In this document: one piece after another, positions 17,872 to 37,674 of the stretch
How positions within the stretch are numbered: position 1 is the stretch's first letter
How the letters are laid out: every line of letters starts with the position of its first letter
The notes under the pieces: model-generated
Seen by the model: the letters and a program-made list of their open reading frames with translations, nothing else
What the model was told of the DNA's origin: nothing
Databases searched by the model: none
Origin: Coriobacteriaceae bacterium
GTDB taxonomy: Bacteria; Actinomycetota; Coriobacteriia; Coriobacteriales; Coriobacteriaceae
Assembly (NCBI GenBank): GCA_902362275.1
Contig: CABIWB010000004.1
Coordinates: 35,225 to 99,224, forward strand
Direction: 5' to 3'
Length of the DNA: 64,000 bases
Translations under genes and position numbers: made by a program

Positions 17872-17946
17872 GCGGGCATCGCCAAGTGGTAAGGCATCAG
17901 CTTCCCAAGCTGACACTCGCGGGTTCGAGTCCCGTTGCCCGCTCCA
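17872..17946 (+). tRNA. tRNA-Gly (anticodon CCC)
   Basis: A complete cloverleaf. The acceptor GCGGGCA pairs with TGCCCGC, and the anticodon stem TCAGC/GCTGA holds the loop TTCCCAA (anticodon CCC). The T arm is GCGGGTTCGAGTCCCGT, and discriminator T and CCA are encoded. Its last 45 bases are the left attachment repeat of the integrated element; integration leaves the tRNA intact. Confidence 0.95.
17902..17946. repeat. attL core (tRNA-Gly 3' end)
   Basis: 45 bp from the anticodon loop to CCA, identical to the copy at 23098-23142. Confidence 0.92.
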
Positions 17947-18003
17947 CGCAAAACAGCAGGTCAAGAGCTTAGAGCGCTTGGCCTGTTTCTCTTTTTCGGC
18001 TCC

Positions 18004-18037
18004 GTAGACCACGGAAATAGACCAAATGTAGACCAAA
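18004..18037. repeat. arm-type integrase sites, left cluster
   Basis: Three copies of a decamer: GTAGACCACG (partial match), ATAGACCAAA and GTAGACCAAA. A further inverted copy, TTTGGTCTAC, lies at 18320-18329. Confidence 0.6.
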
Positions 18038-18086
18038 CTCCGGTGAAACCGTTTTTCGCCCCGACGCCGCCCGCGTCTCCTCCGGC

Positions 18087-18270
18087 CCCTTTTTAGGGCT
18101 TGGGAAAGTTGGGGCTGATCGGCCCGTGTGCCCCTCCCCGCCCTTTTTTAGTTGTTGACATAGTTGACGTTAAAGCAGCGGGGCCGCACCCCTGATACCG
18201 GGATACGGCCCTTTTTAGTTGTTCAGATAGTTCAAATTGAACCCCTTTTTAGGGGCTTCAGAAACTTCAG
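18087..18270. repeat. four degenerate CCCTTTTTAG units
   Basis: Units share CC(C)TTTTTAG, then a purine-rich step and AGTT/ACTT followed by TT, for example TTGTTCAGATAGTTCAAATT. Spacing is uneven (55, 67 and 34 bp), so they are iteron-like rather than a strict tandem array. Confidence 0.45.
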
Positions 18271-18292
18271 ATTGAACGGCCCCGCCCTCGGC

Positions 18293-18351
18293 GCGGTATC
18301 GGCTTGGAACGAGCGCGGTTTTGGTCTACGGAGACCGCGCCCCGATACCGC
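18293..18351. repeat. nested 59-bp palindrome
   Basis: Outer arms GCGGTATCGG / CCGATACCGC and inner arms GCGCGGT / ACCGCGC enclose an inverted copy of the integrase arm decamer. Confidence 0.6.
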
Positions 18352-18379
18352 CCCGGCGACGGGGCCGCCACCTCGGGCG

Positions 18380-18743
18380 CTAGGCCCTGAGCCAATGTTC
18401 CCCGCCCCGGCCCCTCACGTAGACGGGGGCGTAGGCGGCCACTATCACGCCGTCAACGGTAAGCCCATCCTCCGGCTTTGCGTCCCGGGCCACCGTGGCG
18501 GCCTCTAGGGCCGTGTCCAACGGCTGCACCTCCAACGTACCCGCCTCGGCGTCAATGCGCCGAATACGGGCAATCTGTGGCGCTGAGGGGCAATCGTCGG
18601 CGGTCGAGCACGCCACCAAATCGCCGCGCTCCGGCTCTAGCGCCGTGTCCACCTCCACGACAACCCCCCCCCGCAGCGGGTACCGCGCCCACTATCTCCG
18701 GTAGGCCCTCGGCGATCATGCCCCCGATAAATCGAGTCGCCAT
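18380..18743 (-). pseudogene. small element protein, frame broken at a G9 tract
   Basis: The ATG at 18743 follows AGGAGGAGAC and opens MATRFIGGMIAEGLPEIVGA, but the frame breaks at a run of nine G (C9 on the plus strand, 18664-18672). With eight G the frame continues through VVVEVDTALEPERGDLVACS to the stop at 18380, giving about 120 residues of uniform composition. So the gene is off by one base in a homopolymer: a phase-variable tract, a mutation or a sequencing error. The product has no family I recognise; it is probably a small beta-rich protein. Confidence 0.6.
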
Positions 18744-18926
18744 GTCTCCTCCTCGTCTCTCCGTTCCGTTCCGGCGCTTCCCATGTTGCGCCGACGCCGC
18801 GCCCTCGGCGCCCTCGCTCCGCATGTCCCGGCGAAACGCCGAAACCCTGCACACGCCACGCCCCCGGCCCCGCCTCGCGGGTTCGCCCCGGCATGAAAAA
18901 GGCGCCGCCACGGCGGAGCCTCACAG

Positions 18927-18983
18927 TCAGATGAACGGGGCTATGTCCTTGGCCTCATTGAGGAACTTCCTCACCTTGGCCAT
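18927..18983 (-). CDS. 18-residue peptide
   Basis: MAKVRKFLNEAKDIAPFI starts two bases after the stop of the zinc-ribbon frame. It may be a real micro-peptide, since its context is tightly packed, but no independent evidence supports translation. Confidence 0.3.
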   Translation of the reverse strand: MAKVRKFLNEAKDIAPFI

Positions 18984-18985
18984 GG

Positions 18986-19201
18986 CTAAACCCCCCTGAC
19001 CCCGTCCTCGTAATTGCACCTGTCGCATCTCGCCCCGTAGGAGTTTCCGCGCTCGAAATAGCAGAGCGGCTCGCCGCAGTTCGGGCAGCGGACGTCCTTC
19101 TCGGGGTTCTCGCACTTATCGGCTACCGCGCTTCTCTCGGCCTCGGTCATTTTCGGCCATGTCCTCAGCTTCTGCATTCGATTCACCTGCTCAGTAGCCA
19201 T
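18986..19201 (-). CDS. small zinc-ribbon protein
   Basis: A 71-residue protein with two CxxC pairs, CPNCGEPLC and CDRC, separated by about 20 residues, as in a zinc ribbon. The N-terminal half is charged and helical. It begins within the last codons of the preceding tiny frame. Similar short zinc-ribbon proteins are common in phages and conjugative elements; function unknown. Confidence 0.6.
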   Translation of the reverse strand: MATEQVNRMQKLRTWPKMTEAERSAVADKCENPEKDVRCPNCGEPLCYFERGNSYGARCDRCNYEDGVRGV

Positions 19202-19269
19202 ATACGAGTTTTCTGTAGCTCTTCGTATATCTTACCTTAACCCCGGCCTCGCTAGCCCTCTGGTATGCG

Positions 19270-19386
19270 TCAACCATGAGAGACGCCCTCGACGGCCGCG
19301 ATGAGCGTGCAGCGGCAGTTGCACGTCTCGGCATACGGCGCCTCCGGGTCGCCCGGATAGCGGCAGCCGTTGCCGAACTTGCCCAT
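19270..19386 (-). CDS. short remnant resembling a phage head-morphogenesis C-terminus
   Basis: AGGAGGTG precedes this ATG. The 38 residues include PGDPEAPYAETCNCRCTLIA. That pattern (acidic/proline stretch, then E-x-x-N-C-R-C-T) resembles the C-terminal tail of Mu gpF-like minor head proteins. The rest of such a protein is absent, so this is either a remnant or a small stand-alone gene. An overlapping frame immediately downstream (about 28 residues, ATG in CATGGTTGA) could continue the chain after a frameshift. Confidence 0.4.
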   Translation of the reverse strand: MGKFGNGCRYPGDPEAPYAETCNCRCTLIAAVEGVSHG

Positions 19387-19393
19387 AGCGGCC

Positions 19394-19615
19394 TCACCTC
19401 CTAGCTTTCCTTTGCCTCGTGGCCTGAGCCTCGCCCAATAGGCCGTTGACCCGCTCCATGCCCTCACGCGCCTCGGCTATGAGGCATTGACGCTTTCCCG
19501 TGGCCTCGGCCTCCGCCGCCTCGATCTCTTTGAGGGTGTGCGTAGCGCTCCACCGTGAACGGCTGAGGGCATCGGGCATCCATTCGGCATGGATAGCGGC
19601 TCTAGCCCTCTCCAT
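19394..19615 (-). CDS. small helical element protein
   Basis: 73 residues, rich in Ala, Glu and Arg, with a predicted helical central part (TLKEIEAAEAEATGKRQ). It starts inside the end of the 253-residue gene with a 14-base overlap. No family recognised. Confidence 0.45.
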   Translation of the reverse strand: MERARAAIHAEWMPDALSRSRWSATHTLKEIEAAEAEATGKRQCLIAEAREGMERVNGLLGEAQATRQRKARR

Positions 19616-20363
19616 GCTCCCCGCTTTCCCTGAGCACGTATGAGCTTCGACCGTTCTCCCTCACGGCCTCCAGACCCGATGGCGGCAGGCCGACGGTTTT
19701 CATGCCGTGCCTGTCGCAGCTCGAAACGATTAGGCCTCTGCCGTCTATCCATGCCTTCACCGCCTCATGGCATACGGGGCACGGGGCGTGAAAGAACGTC
19801 TCGCCCGTCTCGAAAACGCCGGGGCCTCGCTCATAGTCGGTAGCCTCCTCGCTACTAGCCATTGGGCTTATAGGCCCATGGCTAGTAGCGGATAGGTCAT
19901 AGCTAGTAGGTAGTAGTTTATAGCTATGCTGTGTGCACACCCCGTCTGGCACGGGGTGTGACACGGGGTGTGACACCCCCTCTCCAGCTGGGGGAACGTT
20001 GCCGTTCCCGTCCTCCAGCCACCCGGTGAGGTCTATGTCCCGCAGCATGTTGGCCTTTCGCCACGAGTCCTCGCGGGCGTCGCTGAGGCGGTCGGCGTTG
20101 GCGTCGAAATAGGCGCGGGGCACGCCGTCCAGATGGTCGGGGGACACGCCCGTGAACCAATAGTCGATGAGCGCGGCAAGGTAGGCGCACCGCTCACCCT
20201 CGTCCTCTATCCTGAGCGACGCGAGGTAGTCCCGCAGTTGAATCTTGTCGTATGCGCACGGGGGCTTGCCGCTCGCAATGCCCCGGTCTTTCCTCATGCG
20301 CCTGAGTGCCGCCGCCCGGCGCTCGACCTCTCGGCGGTACTCTGTCCGCTTTTCGCTATCCAT
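19602..20363 (-). CDS. element protein, DUF6291-like N-terminus with C-terminal zinc-binding segment
   Basis: The 253-residue product starts with a basic helix. Residues about 45-105 (YLASLRIEDEGERCAYLAAL, then YFDANADRLSDARE) resemble the small helical domain often found at the start of phage replication-organiser proteins. A repetitive linker (SHPVSHPVPDG, then a Ser/Thr-rich stretch) follows. The C-terminus has CPVCHEA and CDRHG, a likely metal site. It overlaps the neighbouring HTH gene by eight bases. The replication role is a guess from context; the linker DNA contains short TAGCTAGTAG-type repeats. Confidence 0.55.
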   Translation of the reverse strand: MDSEKRTEYRREVERRAAALRRMRKDRGIASGKPPCAYDKIQLRDYLASLRIEDEGERCAYLAALIDYWFTGVSPDHLDGVPRAYFDANADRLSDAREDSWRKANMLRDIDLTGWLEDGNGNVPPAGEGVSHPVSHPVPDGVCTQHSYKLLPTSYDLSATSHGPISPMASSEEATDYERGPGVFETGETFFHAPCPVCHEAVKAWIDGRGLIVSSCDRHGMKTVGLPPSGLEAVRENGRSSYVLRESGEHGEG

Positions 20364-20559
20364 CGTCCACCCCCACGAGTGCGAGGGCCGACTTGCGGGT
20401 TACGTAGACGCGCCGCCCTATGCGCACCTCGTCGAGCGTCCCATGTCTGATGAGGCGGCGAACGTCCCTCTCGCTGAGGTCGAGCACCGCGCCCGCCTGA
20501 GCCGACGTTATGAGCCTCCCCATGTTCACGGGCACGGGCCTAATGTCCTCGTTCCACAC
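20356..20559 (-). CDS. small helix-turn-helix DNA-binding protein (MerR/Xis-like)
   Basis: 67 residues from a GTG with AGAGGGGG upstream. ITSAQAGAVLDLSERDVRRL and the following RHGTLDEVRIGRRVYV match the winged HTH-17 fold of excisionase-type proteins. This is one of two such proteins in the element; the other is at 20784-21008. Confidence 0.65.
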   Translation of the reverse strand: MWNEDIRPVPVNMGRLITSAQAGAVLDLSERDVRRLIRHGTLDEVRIGRRVYVTRKSALALVGVDDG

Positions 20560-20773
20560 TGCCGCCGCCCCCTCTCTTTCGCCTCGCTATCTCGCGCCCG
20601 ATGGCCTCGATACGGCCCCGCGCCCAAGCGCGGTAGGGCTGCCTGTACCCCTTAGCGGCTAGACGGGCCGTGAGGCGGTCTATCTCCTCGCCCATCTGCC
20701 GCCCGGTCATTCCCGGAACGTCGGCGTTCGCCGCGCACCTCGCGGCCTCCAGCGCCGTCCTGATCGGCCTCAT
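20540..20773 (-). CDS. small basic element protein
   Basis: 77 residues, Arg/Ala-rich, predicted mostly helical, with a glycine-rich tail (KRGGGGSVERGH). I used the internal ATG (MRPIRTALEA), which lies just downstream of the excisionase-like gene. No family recognised. Confidence 0.45.
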   Translation of the reverse strand: MRPIRTALEAARCAANADVPGMTGRQMGEEIDRLTARLAAKGYRQPYRAWARGRIEAIGREIARRKRGGGGSVERGH

Positions 20774-20783
20774 GCGCCGCGCC

Positions 20784-21008
20784 CTAGATGAGGCCCGCGT
20801 ATGCGAGCAGGCTGTCACGGTTGATGTTCCACTTGTTGCCCGTCTGAACGGCCTTGAGCTTGCCCGAGATACAGGCCCTCGTGATGGTCGTGCGCGAACG
20901 TCGGGCGATAACCTCGGCCTCGGCCACCACTAGCGGGTTCGGTAGTTCCGAAAAGCGCCCATCCCTTGCAAGCCCGGCGACGCTTTCGAGGTGTTCTTTG
21001 CTGCACAT
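20784..21008 (-). CDS. excisionase-like helix-turn-helix protein
   Basis: 74 residues. The C-terminal half (VIARRSRTTITRACISGKLK, then GNKWNINRDSLLAY) fits the HTH-17 excisionase fold that bends attachment-site DNA and drives excision by the integrase. It starts the lower operon, after a terminator that separates it from integrase and repressor. Confidence 0.65.
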   Translation of the reverse strand: MCSKEHLESVAGLARDGRFSELPNPLVVAEAEVIARRSRTTITRACISGKLKAVQTGNKWNINRDSLLAYAGLI

Positions 21009-21082
21009 TATGGGTTGCCCCCTCCTAATCGAGTTGCTACTTAGACGCGTCTCGCATCGTTTTTAACTCAACGGGCGTGCGA

Positions 21083-21127
21083 TATAAAACGGACGTTCTA
21101 CCTGCGATTATTCGGTAGAACGTCCGT
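21083..21127 (-). terminator. terminator or operator hairpin after the repressor-like gene
   Basis: A perfect 14-bp inverted repeat (ACGGACGTTCTACC / GGTAGAACGTCCGT) with an 11-base loop. On the minus strand it runs into TTTTAT, so it can end the integrase-repressor transcript. Its length also allows a role as an operator for the adjoining operon. Confidence 0.7.
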
Positions 21128-21238
21128 GATGCTTGGTATTCAGTTTGGTTTGCCGAACTTTCGGTATGTCGGGCTGTCCGTTTTTCGGCTAATGCGCACC
21201 GGGCGACGCCGCCGAGCGAGAAAAACCGAACGGGTTTT

Positions 21239-21748
21239 CTATTCGCCCTCGGCCTCGTTCGCTATTGCCATGTCCGTAGCTATCTCGGCTATAACCTCGC
21301 GTTGATGCTCCGTGAGATCGGGCCATGCGTCGAGCAGAACGGAGTACGGGGAAACCCACGGTTCGGGCGTCTCGTAGAACCCCGGACTAGCCATGCAGTC
21401 CACATCCAAGAGGCCCCGGATAAACTCTGTGTACCCCTCGGGCGTACCGCTCCAGTAGCTCTCGCAGTAGTTGACTATCCGAACGAGTTCCGGCGCTCTC
21501 ACGAGTTCCGGCTTGGCCGCCCACTCGCTTACCCTAGAGTTTGACCTATGGCATACGTTCGCCAAAACGCCCTGTTTGACCCCGCAGGCCTCTCGTATGC
21601 GGCGAATGGCGTCCGTCCCCACCCCGAACCGGGGCAGCCTTAGCGGAAAGACGCCGTACCGCCTCATCCATGCAATAGCCTCCTCGTCTGTCTCGAAAGT
21701 ATCGTGGAAATTGTCCGACTCTTTTCTCTTCGCTTTGTGTGCGTCCAT
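21239..21748 (-). CDS. HTH (Cro/CI-like) regulator of the element
   Basis: 169 residues from the ATG that shares bases with the integrase stop codon (GTGATGG). Residues about 45-85 (DAIRRIREACGVKQGVLANV, then CHRSNSRVSEWA) form a Cro/CI-like helix-turn-helix. The C-terminal half is acidic and helical (LTEHQREVIAEIATDMA). It is translationally coupled to the integrase and is probably the element's maintenance repressor; that role is inferred from position. Confidence 0.65.
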   Translation of the reverse strand: MDAHKAKRKESDNFHDTFETDEEAIAWMRRYGVFPLRLPRFGVGTDAIRRIREACGVKQGVLANVCHRSNSRVSEWAAKPELVRAPELVRIVNYCESYWSGTPEGYTEFIRGLLDVDCMASPGFYETPEPWVSPYSVLLDAWPDLTEHQREVIAEIATDMAIANEAEGE

Positions 21749-22950
21749 CACGCCTCACCGCCCGACAAAACGGTTTGCATGGTCTGGGCCGCGCGTTGCT
21801 TGCCCTCGGCTGTCGCGTCGGCGTAAATGTTGAGCGTCATGGCGGCGTTCGAGTGCCCCATAGATGCTGAGATGGCCTTAATGTCCACGTGAGCGGCTAC
21901 AGCCATGGTCGCGAACGTATGGCGCAGGTCGTGGAACGTCGGGCGGGTTCCCCTCGTCCCTTTCAGCTCCAGCGCCTCGGCAAGGTTGCGCCATCTCTGC
22001 CAAATCGTGTTTGGGCGCATGAAACCGCCACGAATGTCCCCGAGCACGTAGAGCGCCCCGGTGAACGGCACGCCCGCAGCGAGGCAGGCGGCCTCCATCT
22101 CATCGCGCCGGGCCACGAGGTCGGCGGCAAGCTCTGAGCCGAAATACACCGCGCGGGCGCTGCCGTCGTTCTTGGGGTCTTTGGCGTAGAACCTCGTTCC
22201 GTCGCGGCCTATGCTGTACTCCACCTTGAGCACGCCGCTATCGGTATCGACGTTCGCCCACCGGAGGCCGCATATCTCGCCCTCCCTCATGCCCGTGTAT
22301 AGGGCGATTTTCACCCCGAGCATAGCCGGGGTCATGCCCGCCACCCTGAGCACCTCGCGCACGGTTCGCACGCCCTCGGCGGTAAGCGAGTTGGGGCGCG
22401 GGCGTCCGGCCTTGGGCGGCTTTACGCCTCGGGTCGGGTCTTTGCCCAACAAATCGGTATCGACGGCCTGATTACACGCAGACCGTAGCAGCGTGAGCGC
22501 CTTTTTCATCGTTCCGGGGGCGTATGTCTCGCCCATCTTGGCAACCCACGCCCTCACCATGTCCGGGTTGAGATCGGAAAGCGCCACCTCCCCGAGCAGC
22601 GGGGAAATGATGTTGTCGAGCAGACGCCCGTACTCGTTGAACGTTGACGGGTCGATACTCGGGCGCTTGCCGTCGATATAGCGGCGAACGTAGGCGGCCA
22701 CGGTAAGCACCGTCTCCGGGTCGAACCCCAGAACCGCCAACGCCGCGCCCTCGCGCTGCCTCTGGTTCCACTCGGCCTCCATGGCCGCGCGCCATTCCTC
22801 CAGCTCTTTCTGGGCCGCGCGTTTCCCGGTGGCCTTGAGGGCCTTGGTCGTTTTCCTCCTCGCGCCGTCCTCGTCGATGTATTTCAGCGCCGCGCGGTAT
22901 TTCCCGCCCCTGCTTTCGAGGTTCGCGGCTATGTAGTGCGTGTACTTCAT
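21748..22950 (-). CDS. int: tyrosine site-specific integrase
   Basis: A phage-type tyrosine recombinase of 400 residues. It has an arm-binding/AP2-like N-terminus (RAALKYIDEDGARRKTTKAL) and a core-binding domain (residues about 75-180). The catalytic domain includes the first Arg in TGMREGEICGLRW, HDLRHTFATMA (His-x-x-Arg), then GHSNAAMTLNIYAD with the nucleophilic Tyr. I used the ATG with GGAG upstream; the frame stays open 54 codons further, but that region carries arm-type sites and attR. It inserts the element into tRNA-Gly. Confidence 0.93.
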   Translation of the reverse strand: MKYTHYIAANLESRGGKYRAALKYIDEDGARRKTTKALKATGKRAAQKELEEWRAAMEAEWNQRQREGAALAVLGFDPETVLTVAAYVRRYIDGKRPSIDPSTFNEYGRLLDNIISPLLGEVALSDLNPDMVRAWVAKMGETYAPGTMKKALTLLRSACNQAVDTDLLGKDPTRGVKPPKAGRPRPNSLTAEGVRTVREVLRVAGMTPAMLGVKIALYTGMREGEICGLRWANVDTDSGVLKVEYSIGRDGTRFYAKDPKNDGSARAVYFGSELAADLVARRDEMEAACLAAGVPFTGALYVLGDIRGGFMRPNTIWQRWRNLAEALELKGTRGTRPTFHDLRHTFATMAVAAHVDIKAISASMGHSNAAMTLNIYADATAEGKQRAAQTMQTVLSGGEA

Positions 22951-22959
22951 GCGTGCTCC

Positions 22960-23015
22960 GTAGACCAAAACGTAGACCAAATGTAGACCAAATAGCGTGT
23001 ACCTCTTTGGTCTAC
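22960..23015. repeat. arm-type integrase sites, right cluster
   Basis: Three direct copies of GTAGACCAAA (22960, 22972, 22983; 11-12 bp apart) and one inverted copy (TTTGGTCTAC, 23006-23015), between the integrase start and attR. They also overlap the likely integrase promoter region, which would allow autoregulation. Confidence 0.7.
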
Positions 23016-23097
23016 GTTGCACATTATGGCACATAACGCGCGTTTTACCTGCAACGTTAGTAACGCTTTTTATCTCTTTGAACACTTGCGTGTAAGA

Positions 23098-23142
23098 TTC
23101 CCAAGCTGACACTCGCGGGTTCGAGTCCCGTTGCCCGCTCCA
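23098..23142. repeat. attR core
   Basis: Exact 45-bp copy of the tRNA-Gly 3' portion. Before integration this was the tRNA end, so sequence to its right is the native tRNA-Gly downstream region. Confidence 0.92.
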
Positions 23143-23462
23143 GTTAAGAGCACAAGCATGGCACCATCACGGTGCCGTGCTTTTTTCAATAAAGTGCCGG
23201 GACTCGAACCCGACAGGGTGCGAGCGTTAAGCAAACGCGAAGCGTTTGTAGCGAGCAGGCGAAGGCGCCGACAGGCGCCTGAAGCCGGTGCGGATTTGCG
23301 AAGCAAATACGCGGACGTCCCGTTGCCCGCTCCACCGAGCGCGGAAGACCTCGGGACGGCCAATTCAACAAAGTCTCCCCCATCGTCTCCGTGAATCCGA
23401 GGAGATCGCCGCAGCCGGTGCGCGTCCGCGACGCGGGCGCGCGGACGTCCCGTTGCCCGCTC
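23143..23462 (+). repeat. tRNA-Gly 3'-tail repeat modules
   Basis: After the attR copy of the tRNA end come a terminator, then GCCGGGACTCGAACCCGAC (a T-arm-like palindrome). Three hairpins follow: CAAACGCgaaGCGTTTG, GGCGCCgacaGGCGCC and ATTTGCgaaGCAAAT. Next is a re-created tRNA 3' end, GTCCCGTTGCCCGCTCCA, at 23317-23334. A shorter second unit repeats AGCCGGTGCG, a changed hairpin (GTCCGCgacGCGGGC) and the same tRNA tail at 23445-23462. No protein gene is seen. Confidence 0.8.
23154..23186 (+). terminator. native terminator of tRNA-Gly
   Basis: A 12-bp stem (AAGCATGGCACC / GGTGCCGTGCTT) with a 5-base loop and six T. It is now separated from the tRNA by the integrated element. Confidence 0.85.
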
Positions 23463-23566
23463 CAATTCCAAAATGTTAGGTTAATGCCTGCTGCCCATAC
23501 TTGCACCTGCGCACGGTACAATGGTTGGGGTACGACCAACGTGCCAATAACCAAAAAGGAGCCGCT

Positions 23567-31940: not shown

Positions 31941-32016
31941 GGGCCGTTAGCTCAGCTGGCAGAGCAGGGGACTTTTAATCCCAAGGTCCAGGGTTCGAAC
32001 CCCTGACGGCCCACCA
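31941..32016 (+). tRNA. tRNA-Lys (anticodon TTT)
   Basis: Acceptor GGGCCGT pairs with ACGGCCC. The D arm is GCTCAGCTGGCAGAGC, the anticodon loop CTTTTAA (anticodon TTT), and the T arm CAGGGTTCGAACCCCTG; CCA is encoded. The anticodon stem has one G-A mismatch at its base. Confidence 0.95.
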
Positions 32017-32260
32017 TAGAAAAGAAAGCGATCGACTCCGGTTGGTCGCTTTTTTGTTGCCGCGGCACGGGTTCGAACCCGAAAGGGCGCGGAGATGAGG
32101 AAACGCGTGAGCGTTTGCCAGCGCAGCGCGCAAGGCGCGAAAGCGCCGCAGCGGCCGCCTACGAAGCAGGCTGAACCCCTGACGGCCCACCATAGAATAG
32201 AAAAGCGACTGGCGGATGCCGTCCGCTTTTTTGTTGCCGGTGCACGGGTTCGAACCCGTA
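31997..32260 (+). repeat. tRNA-Lys 3'-tail repeat module
   Basis: The 25-base stretch from GAACCCCTGACGGCCC through CCATAGAA is present in the tRNA (31997) and again at 32173, 176 bp later. Each copy is followed by a terminator hairpin ending GCTTTTTTGTTGCCG and then by CACGGGTTCGAACCCG (32066 and 32243). Between them lie hairpins AAACGCgtgaGCGTTT and GGCGCgaaaGCGCC, in the same order as in the tRNA-Gly module. The second unit stops after the T-arm-like palindrome. Confidence 0.82.
32026..32056 (+). terminator. intrinsic terminator of tRNA-Lys
   Basis: 12-bp stem AAAGCGATCGAC / GTTGGTCGCTTT (two G-T pairs) with a four-base loop and six T. Confidence 0.85.
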
Positions 32261-32791
32261 TCTATCTATATATAAGAACGCTTGGCGAACAAAACCCGCC
32301 TTTTACCGATGGGAAACAAATAGCTGATGCCTTTGGAGTAAAGTAGCGCTCCAGAGATGACCGATGTCTCAATACTCATAAAACAGCTGGTCATCGCCAA
32401 TATCAGAAGCCAATGCTTCAGTTTAAACCTCAGTGATGCGACTGGGGGACCTATTCATTTGTGAACAAAATATGGAGTGCGCGATTCCCGCCCCCGGCGC
32501 CCCTCCGGTCTGGCAATATATCTCCTTGCCGCGCGGCCCGGTCGGACCGGATCGGCCGCGGGGGCGTGCACCTTGAGAACCGGATACTGCGAGGATGGAC
32601 ACTTACTTCAGTGTCGCATCCGGGCAGACATCGAACCATTTGAAATGGTCTAACTTGGATTTGTTTTTCGCAAGGCCGCCGAGAGGCGGCCCCGAGAAAT
32701 TCCTTTTCCTATCTAGTAGAACCATATGAATCGAACGGAACCGATCAGCTGATAGTTGTGAGGACCGGACGGGCTCGAAGCCCAGAATATT
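32261..32791 (+). other. rRNA promoter and leader region
   Basis: About 530 bases with no protein gene. The left part is AT-rich (TATCTATCTATATATAAG) and may hold promoters. The right part holds leader hairpins (GGCCGCC/GGCGGCC near 32680; ACCATTTGAAATGGT). It also holds CACCTTGAGAACCGGATA near 32570, which is repeated in similar form in the 16S-23S spacer (ACCTTGAGAGCCGCATA), a common rRNA leader element. Confidence 0.65.

Positions 32792-37674
<4,883 letters not shown>

Follow-up and report, generated by a model that had tools for sequence, protein, structure and literature searches.

Repeated units behind tRNA-Lys and tRNA-Gly

The stretch of DNA analysed here (64,000 nucleotides, hereafter the window) carries on its plus strand a tRNA-Lys(ttt) gene with an encoded CCA (31941..32016, called by ARAGORN and matched by Rfam RF00005 with 67.6 bits over 31941-32013). 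On its 3' side, a consensus scan placed a terminator-like hairpin with a T run (32026..32056, plus strand; stem at 32029-32044 or 32033-32048), which is copied again downstream. The core and tail of what we call the Lys unit follow on the same strand at 32064..32192, a match of 126.1 bits to covariance model R1, in which this sequence is itself included. The left arm of the unit, CACGGGTTCGAACCC (32067..32081), resembles an antisense T-arm, with 3 mismatches in 17 against the antisense of the T-arm of its own tRNA, and its GGGTTC can pair with GAACCC in the tail to form stem P1. Four plus-strand hairpins make up the core: P2 (CCC-GAAA-GGG, 32078..32087, from the sequence and the consensus structure), P3 (AAACGC-GTGA-GCGTTT, 32101..32116), P4 (GGCGC-GAAA-GCGCC, 32134..32147), and P5 (GCCTAC-GAA-GCAGGC, 32157..32171), the last of which has one A.C mismatch in the Lys copy, was read from the sequence and its relatives, and consists of pairs outside model R1. 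The tail (32173..32192) is a 20-nt copy of the tRNA-Lys 3' terminus, CCA included. A second terminator-like hairpin with a T run (32202..32232, stem 32211-32227) and a partial third repeat, the antisense T-arm alone (32243..32259), end the array on the same strand.

One Lys unit of 176 bp therefore reads, in order, terminator, antisense local T-arm, four hairpins, and 20-nt tRNA 3' copy. The preliminary description of this DNA had identified the tail as the tRNA-Lys 3' end at an offset of 176 bp, which is correct: GAACCCCTGACGGCCCACCATAGAA occurs at 31997 and 32173, a repeat search gave the pair 97% identity across 31 nt, and an exact 25-nt copy runs from within the T-loop to beyond the CCA. 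It had also taken CGAACCCG as the start of the unit, a sequence that is present as part of the antisense T-arm, and it understated the extent of the repeat, in which the terminator (32029-32048 and 32211-32227) and the partial third copy at 32243-32259 take part as well. On its own, the Lys unit folds with no exceptional stability as RNA (z -0.19) and with slightly raised stability as DNA (z -1.88); the argument for structure comes from the family described below. The unit is situated between tRNA-Lys and a 16S rRNA gene (window 31941-32792); several Lys(ttt) units of the genus lie near contig ends, as expected if the order tRNA-Lys/unit/16S is conserved.

The Gly unit (23195..23334, plus strand; R1 92.8 bits), comprising a core and the tail GTCCCGTTGCCCGCTCCA at 23317-23334, is a second family member, separated from its tRNA by an integrated element. 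The intact tRNA-Gly(ccc) gene is found at 17872-17946, 5.2 kb away, and the unit lies directly behind a 45-nt remnant of the 3' part of tRNA-Gly(ccc) (23098..23142, plus strand, by reading), which is attR-like and forms the right end of the element; the preliminary description had this unit as a member, rightly, but next to the tRNA-Gly gene itself. Between the intact gene and the remnant, a minus-strand ORF (21748-23112) encodes a phage integrase domain (PF00589, E 1.9e-22), and the whole of 17872-23142 has the appearance of an element integrated into tRNA-Gly(ccc), with the integrase-domain ORF inside and the tRNA remnant at its right end. A truncated second Gly unit follows at 23388..23464 on the plus strand (weak R1 match, 12.4 bits, E 1.2), with a further tail at 23447-23464 assigned by reading. 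Taken alone, the R1 scores of the Lys and Gly units are circular, since both sequences are in the model alignment. The two cores, for which a common architecture had been proposed, are 78% identical across 68 aligned columns (E = 8e-5 in a search of the 64-kb window), bearing the proposal out. The segment CGAACCCGANAGGG is exact at 23205 (Gly) and 32074 (Lys), where 0.09 matches are expected with one mismatch permitted and two were reached in 0 of 100 shuffles. The Gly unit folds with z -3.04 as RNA (23194-23335) and z -4.36 as DNA. Hairpins of at least 6 pairs with GN(N)A loops number eight on the plus strand of the window, four of them within the two units, and four on the minus strand, so few that they are not a general feature there.

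A family of units tied to tRNA genes

A query consisting of the Lys unit without its tail matched 32 of 58 relatives, namely 32 of the 35 in the same genus (Collinsella) and 0 of the 23 in other genera, which is support independent of model R1. The model itself, built from 28 units, located units in 40 of 43 Collinsella genomes (431 matches in total, ~10 per genome; no match in G015, G032 and G066) and in 57 of 246 genomes sampled across the class Coriobacteriia, representing 17 of 110 genera; among the class matches listed, these were 33 of 35 genomes in the genus, 9 of 13 in the rest of the family and 15 genomes in three further families. The preliminary description had named a loss of core similarity, or a lack of further loci, as what would speak against it; the similarity persisted and further loci were plentiful (32/58 relatives, 40/43 and 57/246 genomes). 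The units are real, conserved and widespread in Coriobacteriaceae, occurring singly or in short tandem arrays, with single units of 176-193 bp where measured. When 30 loci of other genera and families were re-read, 27 had a tail copy of the local tRNA (L227 and L244 overlap), L194 had a weak tail match only, to a neighbouring tRNA, and L246 and L247 had no tail copy. In three distant members that were read (L235, L236, L417), unit and tRNA stand without a terminator between them.

Outside Coriobacteriia, the units are patchy or too diverged for R1. In a sample of the window's own phylum R1 matched 6 of 198 genomes, and L417, from another class of that phylum, is a Ser(gga) unit without a terminator. 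A Clostridia genome (G271) gave 10 R1 matches at E <= 0.01, and 7 of the 10 loci (two of which form one array) carry tails copied from local tRNAs for Arg, Pro, Ser or Leu; in G272, three loci had no tail copy by the same test, and L292 in that genome is a unit with a tail behind a tRNA 3' remnant. In an even sample of the phylum of G271, R1 at E 1e-6 matched only G271 among 348. A different repeat with CGAACCCGACAGGGCGCGAAGCGGGATCTT and no evident upstream tRNA was observed in Clostridia records (L314, L391, L392). No Rfam family reached its gathering score over the Lys unit or the other units searched; weak matches to sX4, Gut-1 and plastid families overlap tRNAs or fall elsewhere, and were set aside. 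The literature library that was searched listed no paper describing repeats of this sort in either Coriobacteriia or Clostridia.

The position of the units was assessed on 127 strong matches, composed of 117 and 10 from two R1 scans (the first gave 127 matches, minus 9 below 60 bits and 1 truncated at a contig end; from the second, 10 of 49 were retained at >=73 bits). The first-scan loci L071-L170 represent 100 of 129 regions drawn from 150 listed places, and weaker copies are under-represented among them. Within this set, 104 of 127 matches begin 45-69 nt behind a tRNA gene on the same strand, with 18 anticodon types represented. The other 23 comprise 10 second tandem units (226-252 nt), one match at 123 nt, the Gly unit of the window (5248 nt) and 11 without a called tRNA, of which 3 are at contig ends and 8 are represented by seven re-read stretches. 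All seven stretches have a tRNA 3' remnant upstream, with a full T-arm in five and ~9 nt in two Glu loci; the full T-arm in 5 of 7 implies that the real tRNA was the integration target and the unit lay beyond it, the two Glu loci being indecisive. Two remnant loci were read for genes and carry lysin or endolysin-like ORFs, one of them also a reverse-transcriptase domain (Pfam), and we read both as prophages. By a rough criterion of our own, 88 of the 104 adjacent units have a terminator-like hairpin and T run in front of them.

A pattern scan of Collinsella and other named genomes gave at least 132 matches, and among the matches listed 113 have an upstream tRNA or T-arm. The remaining 19 among these include three Glu remnants and 16 that were read individually: some are contig ends or missed tRNA ends, two are disrupted copies in Collinsella phocaeensis, and the rest are apparent chance matches, an antisense tRNA or unrelated repeats. 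The Collinsella phocaeensis cores (L304, L305) have nearly the same 140-bp sequence upstream and no tRNA, as if another repeat had inserted. At tRNA-Glu in G024 (L201), by reading, an IS-like piece of ~1.4 kb splits the terminator between the tRNA and the unit.

Matched ends, hairpins and inheritance

The units are made up of a terminator region, present in most of them, an antisense copy of the local T-arm, a conserved core of ~105 bp that can form four hairpins, and a sense copy of the 3' end of the local tRNA; T-loop-like sequence flanks the core on both sides, and the arms can pair and close it. Compared with tRNAs whose tails differ at >3 places, the local tRNA was the better match to the tail in all of the units that could be tested (103 of 103; 1 of the 104 was unparsed), with a mean of 0.37 mismatches per 17 to the local tRNA vs 6.84 to others. 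The proposal of one core with different, tRNA-specific tails, originally made from two tRNAs, thus extends to many, with 18 anticodons. The antisense T-arm is matched more loosely: its own tRNA is the best fit in 71 of 103 units, with a tie in 11 and some other tRNA better in 21, and in 101 of 103 the arm resembles its own tRNA more than the mean of the others. The unusual T-loop of Leu(cag) is mirrored (TTCAA in the tRNA, TTGAA in the unit), the CCGC in the arm of Thr(cgt) is balanced by GCGG in P2, and the antisense arm extends into the acceptor in some relatives. In many single distant loci, the antisense segments are 5-7 nt long and individually non-significant.

In one genome, G024, a tail copy was present within <=700 nt downstream of 15 of 57 tRNAs, compared with 35 of 2918 for mismatched tails. 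By our reading, the copies behind the tRNAs for Ile, Gly(gcc), Asn, Glu(ctc), Ala(ggc) and Lys(ctt, 2148888) belong to second tRNA genes, and nine remain as tails (Val, Gln, Lys(ttt), Gly(ccc), Leu(cag), Leu(caa) and three Arg(acg)). In the outgroup G036, for which 34 of its 47 tRNAs were covered, a tail copy was found at 1 of 34 (a tandem gene), with 19 of 1008 for mismatched tails. Antisense T-arm-like matches occurred at 13 of 57 tRNAs in G024 vs 2 of 34 in G036.

Two-sided changes were seen at 21 of 27 modelled pairs, the P1 pairs between arm and tail included. Paired cells amounted to 96.0% vs 85.7% in shuffled and 37-53% in slid alignments, and none of five structure measures was reached by any of 500 shuffles (0/500), in a test for which the alignment had been fitted to the structure. 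Single-unit folds vary, from the unremarkable Lys unit to L028 (RNA z -4.53) and L232 (RNA z -5.63, DNA z -5.45). The loops are of a particular kind: 134 of 216 (62%) are GNA or GNNA, and 133 of these are closed by C-G (cGNAg or cGNNAg), whereas such loops account for 14 of 111 (13%) in upstream flanks, 25 of 137 (18%, partly next units) in downstream flanks and 13 of 352 (4%) in mononucleotide shuffles. Among the GNNA tetraloops, 49 of 69 are GNRA and 20 of 69 are not. GNRA loops are stable in RNA as well. In the excerpt consulted of PMC4686876, DNA mini-hairpins with a GNA or GNNA loop on a G-C stem are called extraordinarily stable. The excess of cGNAg/cGNNAg loops leans towards folding as single-stranded DNA.

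Wobble pairs make up 33 of 1671 cells (2.0%), or 58 of 1732 (3.3%) counting one variable pair, against 19 of 372 (5.1%) in the acceptor and T stems of 31 tRNAs from the same loci; wobble is lower in the units than in tRNA stems, about twofold, and is not absent. In the model alignment G.T pairs outnumber A.C (33 vs 9), as they do at one further pair (25 vs 0) and in the tRNA stems (19 vs 1), which indicates that the sense strand folds and fits RNA and single-stranded DNA equally. A separate stem count gave 1638 Watson-Crick pairs vs 11 G.T, 5 A.C and 67 other, a purity that is partly by construction because stems were defined with at most one mismatch.

The median core distance was 0.086 for the same tRNA in different genomes, 0.302 for different tRNAs within one genome and 0.359 where neither was shared. 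The nearest core was at the same tRNA in 91 of 125 cases, at another tRNA in another genome in 29 and at another tRNA of the same genome in 5. Judging from these sequences, inheritance at a given tRNA dominates among close species, yet cores have crossed between tRNAs. The cores of Gly(ccc) in G016 (L124) and Arg(cct) in G022 (L142) differ at 5.2% of columns, with similarity spanning TCGAACCCG to GGACGCGA and dropping at the terminator and tail, and those of Leu(cag) (L099) and Arg(acg) (L143) at 7.1%; in both exchanged pairs the terminators, arms and tails differ, and similarity is bounded near T-loop sequence. The idea of a mobile family gains partial support from core exchange between tRNA loci and from the empty site described next, tempered by the prevalence of same-tRNA inheritance. 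Unit-bearing tRNAs vary between species, and one clear case of an empty vs filled site was found, at tRNA-Phe: the site is empty in G024 and filled in L017 and L120, where a direct repeat of about 63 bp, made of tail and terminator, lies on both sides of the unit. It can equally reflect gain in L017/L120 or deletion in G024. At L025, a tRNA-Ala(cgc) gene is accompanied by a core with a Leu(cag)-type tail, as if recombined through the core.

Comparison with known repeats and possible origins

The 178-bp repeats at E. coli tyrT were first described around 1978. As in Collinsella, the repeats at tyrT/tyrV (RtT RNA, RF00391; rttR b4425, tpr b1229) are tandem units behind a tRNA, each ending in a copy of its 3' end. 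In E. coli K-12, three tail copies lie downstream of tyrV, each after hairpins and an arm antisense to the tail, and a further unit lies between tyrT and tyrV. The exact 19-nt copies of the tRNA-Tyr tail start at +159, +337 and +515, and the Collinsella units likewise carry tails. The left arm GGGGAAGGAT at +59 is antisense to the tail, a match that 0 of 200 shuffles reached (its counterpart at the other Tyr gene has 8 nt and was reached by 12 of 200), and both systems share an antisense arm that pairs with the tail and cGNAg-loop hairpins in between, the RtT units having GCA and GAA triloops closed by C-G and a 9-bp P1 stem. One RtT unit overlaps the annotated small ORF tpr. RtT occurs in 4680 of 5426 E. 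coli genomes at a median of 2 places, and the part of PMC4986893 consulted places it at many E. coli tRNA operons and two Actinobacillus tRNAs; our comparison concerns the tyrT/tyrV locus.

Applied to 50 kb of E. coli, R1 ranked the four RtT units as the top 4 of 27 matches (E 0.016, 0.39, 0.42 and 0.47), weak scores aided by the tRNA-like tail, given that tRNA ends alone give 7.5 bits. In the reverse direction, RF00391, with 45 bits as the test of membership, matched 0 of 149 Coriobacteriia genomes even at E 0.01 and had no match in the window or at loci L124, L225 and L232, with four matches in the E. coli positive control (L280). RtT and the Coriobacteriia units thus have a common layout and different sequence, from which common descent and convergence cannot be told apart. 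To call the class undescribed, as was first suggested, is too strong in view of the tyrT/tyrV repeats, which have the same layout without a match at the level of Rfam.

Other known elements share single traits with the units. Repeats of the REP/BIME kind associated with RAYT are likewise short, non-coding, palindromic hairpin DNA; unlike them, the units are multi-hairpin, bound to tRNA 3' ends and furnished with locus-matched arms, they do not fit the definition of REP as a 20-40 bp palindrome in high copy (PMC3733652, in the part consulted), and they also occur in four genomes, some of them drafts, without a PF01797 match. MITE and IS elements have constant terminal inverted repeats, whereas the arms here follow the local tRNA, and in place of a short target duplication the units have a flanking repeat composed of the tail and the terminator (about 63 bp at Phe). 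Integrative elements that target tRNAs likewise duplicate the tRNA 3' end, but at 176-193 bp the units are too short for an integrase or cargo and have their own core, an antisense arm and tandem arrays.

The reading that we favour, at a probability of roughly 0.45 and from sequence comparison, is that these are tRNA-tethered hairpin repeats, whose core may move at the DNA level between tRNA loci and be refitted with the local tRNA end. The core would be a small non-coding, probably selfish DNA module. While single during replication or repair, its sense strand would form stable hairpins with cGN(N)Ag loops. A switch of strands at the T-loop, which is palindromic, could bring the core to another tRNA, and if the closed hairpin is then copied across, the outer arm may be rewritten to the local tRNA end, as the matched sequences suggest. 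Recombination between direct repeats (tail plus terminator) would add or delete whole units, and an insert behind the terminator would leave the tRNA intact, which would let it persist. Counting against this reading are the mostly vertical inheritance in close species (91 of 125 nearest cores at the same tRNA) and the sense-strand G.T excess, which fits RNA as well. A search for Y1 transposases as a mobilising enzyme found none tied to the units, and six genus genomes are without Y1_Tnp.

The main rival is a small RNA of the RtT kind, which we regard as possible but rather doubtful. Read-through of the terminator would yield ~130-170 nt with P1-closed hairpins and a CCA end, to be excised by tRNA-processing enzymes and to serve a putative regulatory or sponge role. 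The annotation of E. coli rttR (b4425) at the same place and with the same layout, the covariation and excess of G.T over A.C on the sense strand, and the missing terminator before the units in L235, L236 and L417 are all consistent with such an RNA, while the terminator-like hairpin and T run before 88 of 104 adjacent units, the cGNAg triloops and non-GNRA cGNNAg loops, the rarity of wobble relative to tRNA stems and the RNA fold of the Lys unit (z -0.19) argue against it. It is improbable that the units are instead a DNA device kept by the host behind its tRNAs, be it an integration decoy, a barrier to replication or transcription, or a recombination buffer that repairs damaged tRNA ends: near-universality in the genus (40 of 43) and long retention at given tRNAs would suit such a role, but the integrations that can be placed (5 of 7, and the Gly case in the window) are in the real tRNA and not in tail copies, three genus genomes have no match, and unit-bearing tRNAs differ among species.

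Movement by a Y1 transposase (RAYT or TnpA), as for a REP/BIME-like or IS200-like repeat, seems to us very improbable. The hairpin DNA, the presence of Y1_Tnp genes in 37 of 43 genus genomes, a RAYT-like kind that several genomes carry some 4-5 kb from a unit, a 6-9 bp cGN(N)A hairpin just 3' of the gene at 3 of 9 loci scanned (L251-L253, IS200-like) and the rtT-like elements reported among BIMEs in Enterobacteria (PMC2965389, in the portion consulted) would agree with it; on the other hand, Y1_Tnp had no match in the unit-bearing genomes G033 (11 units), G026 (5), G006 (3) and G002 (1), and no unit was visible by eye among the hairpins listed for 350-nt flanks around 14 weaker Y1 genes. RAYT-like Y1 genes (L260, L263, L265 and others; PF01797) occur several per genome. 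Least probable of all, and only barely credible, is that repeated integration and loss of phages or ICEs at tRNA 3' ends left the tails behind. The tails resemble att repeats, and prophage-like or integrase-bearing DNA (lysin, endolysin-like, integrase; window 17872-23142) is found at the same tRNAs, but the conserved core, the antisense arm and the constant spacing of 45-69 nt would go unexplained; the Lys stretch had no match in 50,697 phage records.

More tentatively than for the Coriobacteriia units themselves, we suggest that there may be a general bacterial class of element, in which a gene-less core of single-stranded DNA hairpins hops between tRNA loci and rewrites its ends from each tRNA. 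Its terminal inverted repeats would then be borrowed from the host tRNA, the class would extend from Coriobacteriia and at least one further class of actinobacteria to some Clostridia and the Enterobacteria (tyrT/RtT), and the old oddity of the tyrT/RtT repeats would be explained. What was a curiosity known mainly from E. coli now looks like a class that recurs, with numerous replicates provided by nature at 18 or more tRNA types; these make the old question of whether it is an RNA or a DNA element, mobile or not, directly testable. The units suggest how a gene-less element can carry ends that match its neighbour, and they warn that copies of tRNA 3' ends beside tRNAs are not always integration scars. 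A related arrangement was seen at tRNA-Arg(cct) in G024 (L041), where an antisense copy of the 3' part of the tRNA, ~26 nt long and reaching the variable loop, stands behind the terminator with no core or tail; this longer antisense copy is possibly a precursor or a relic state.
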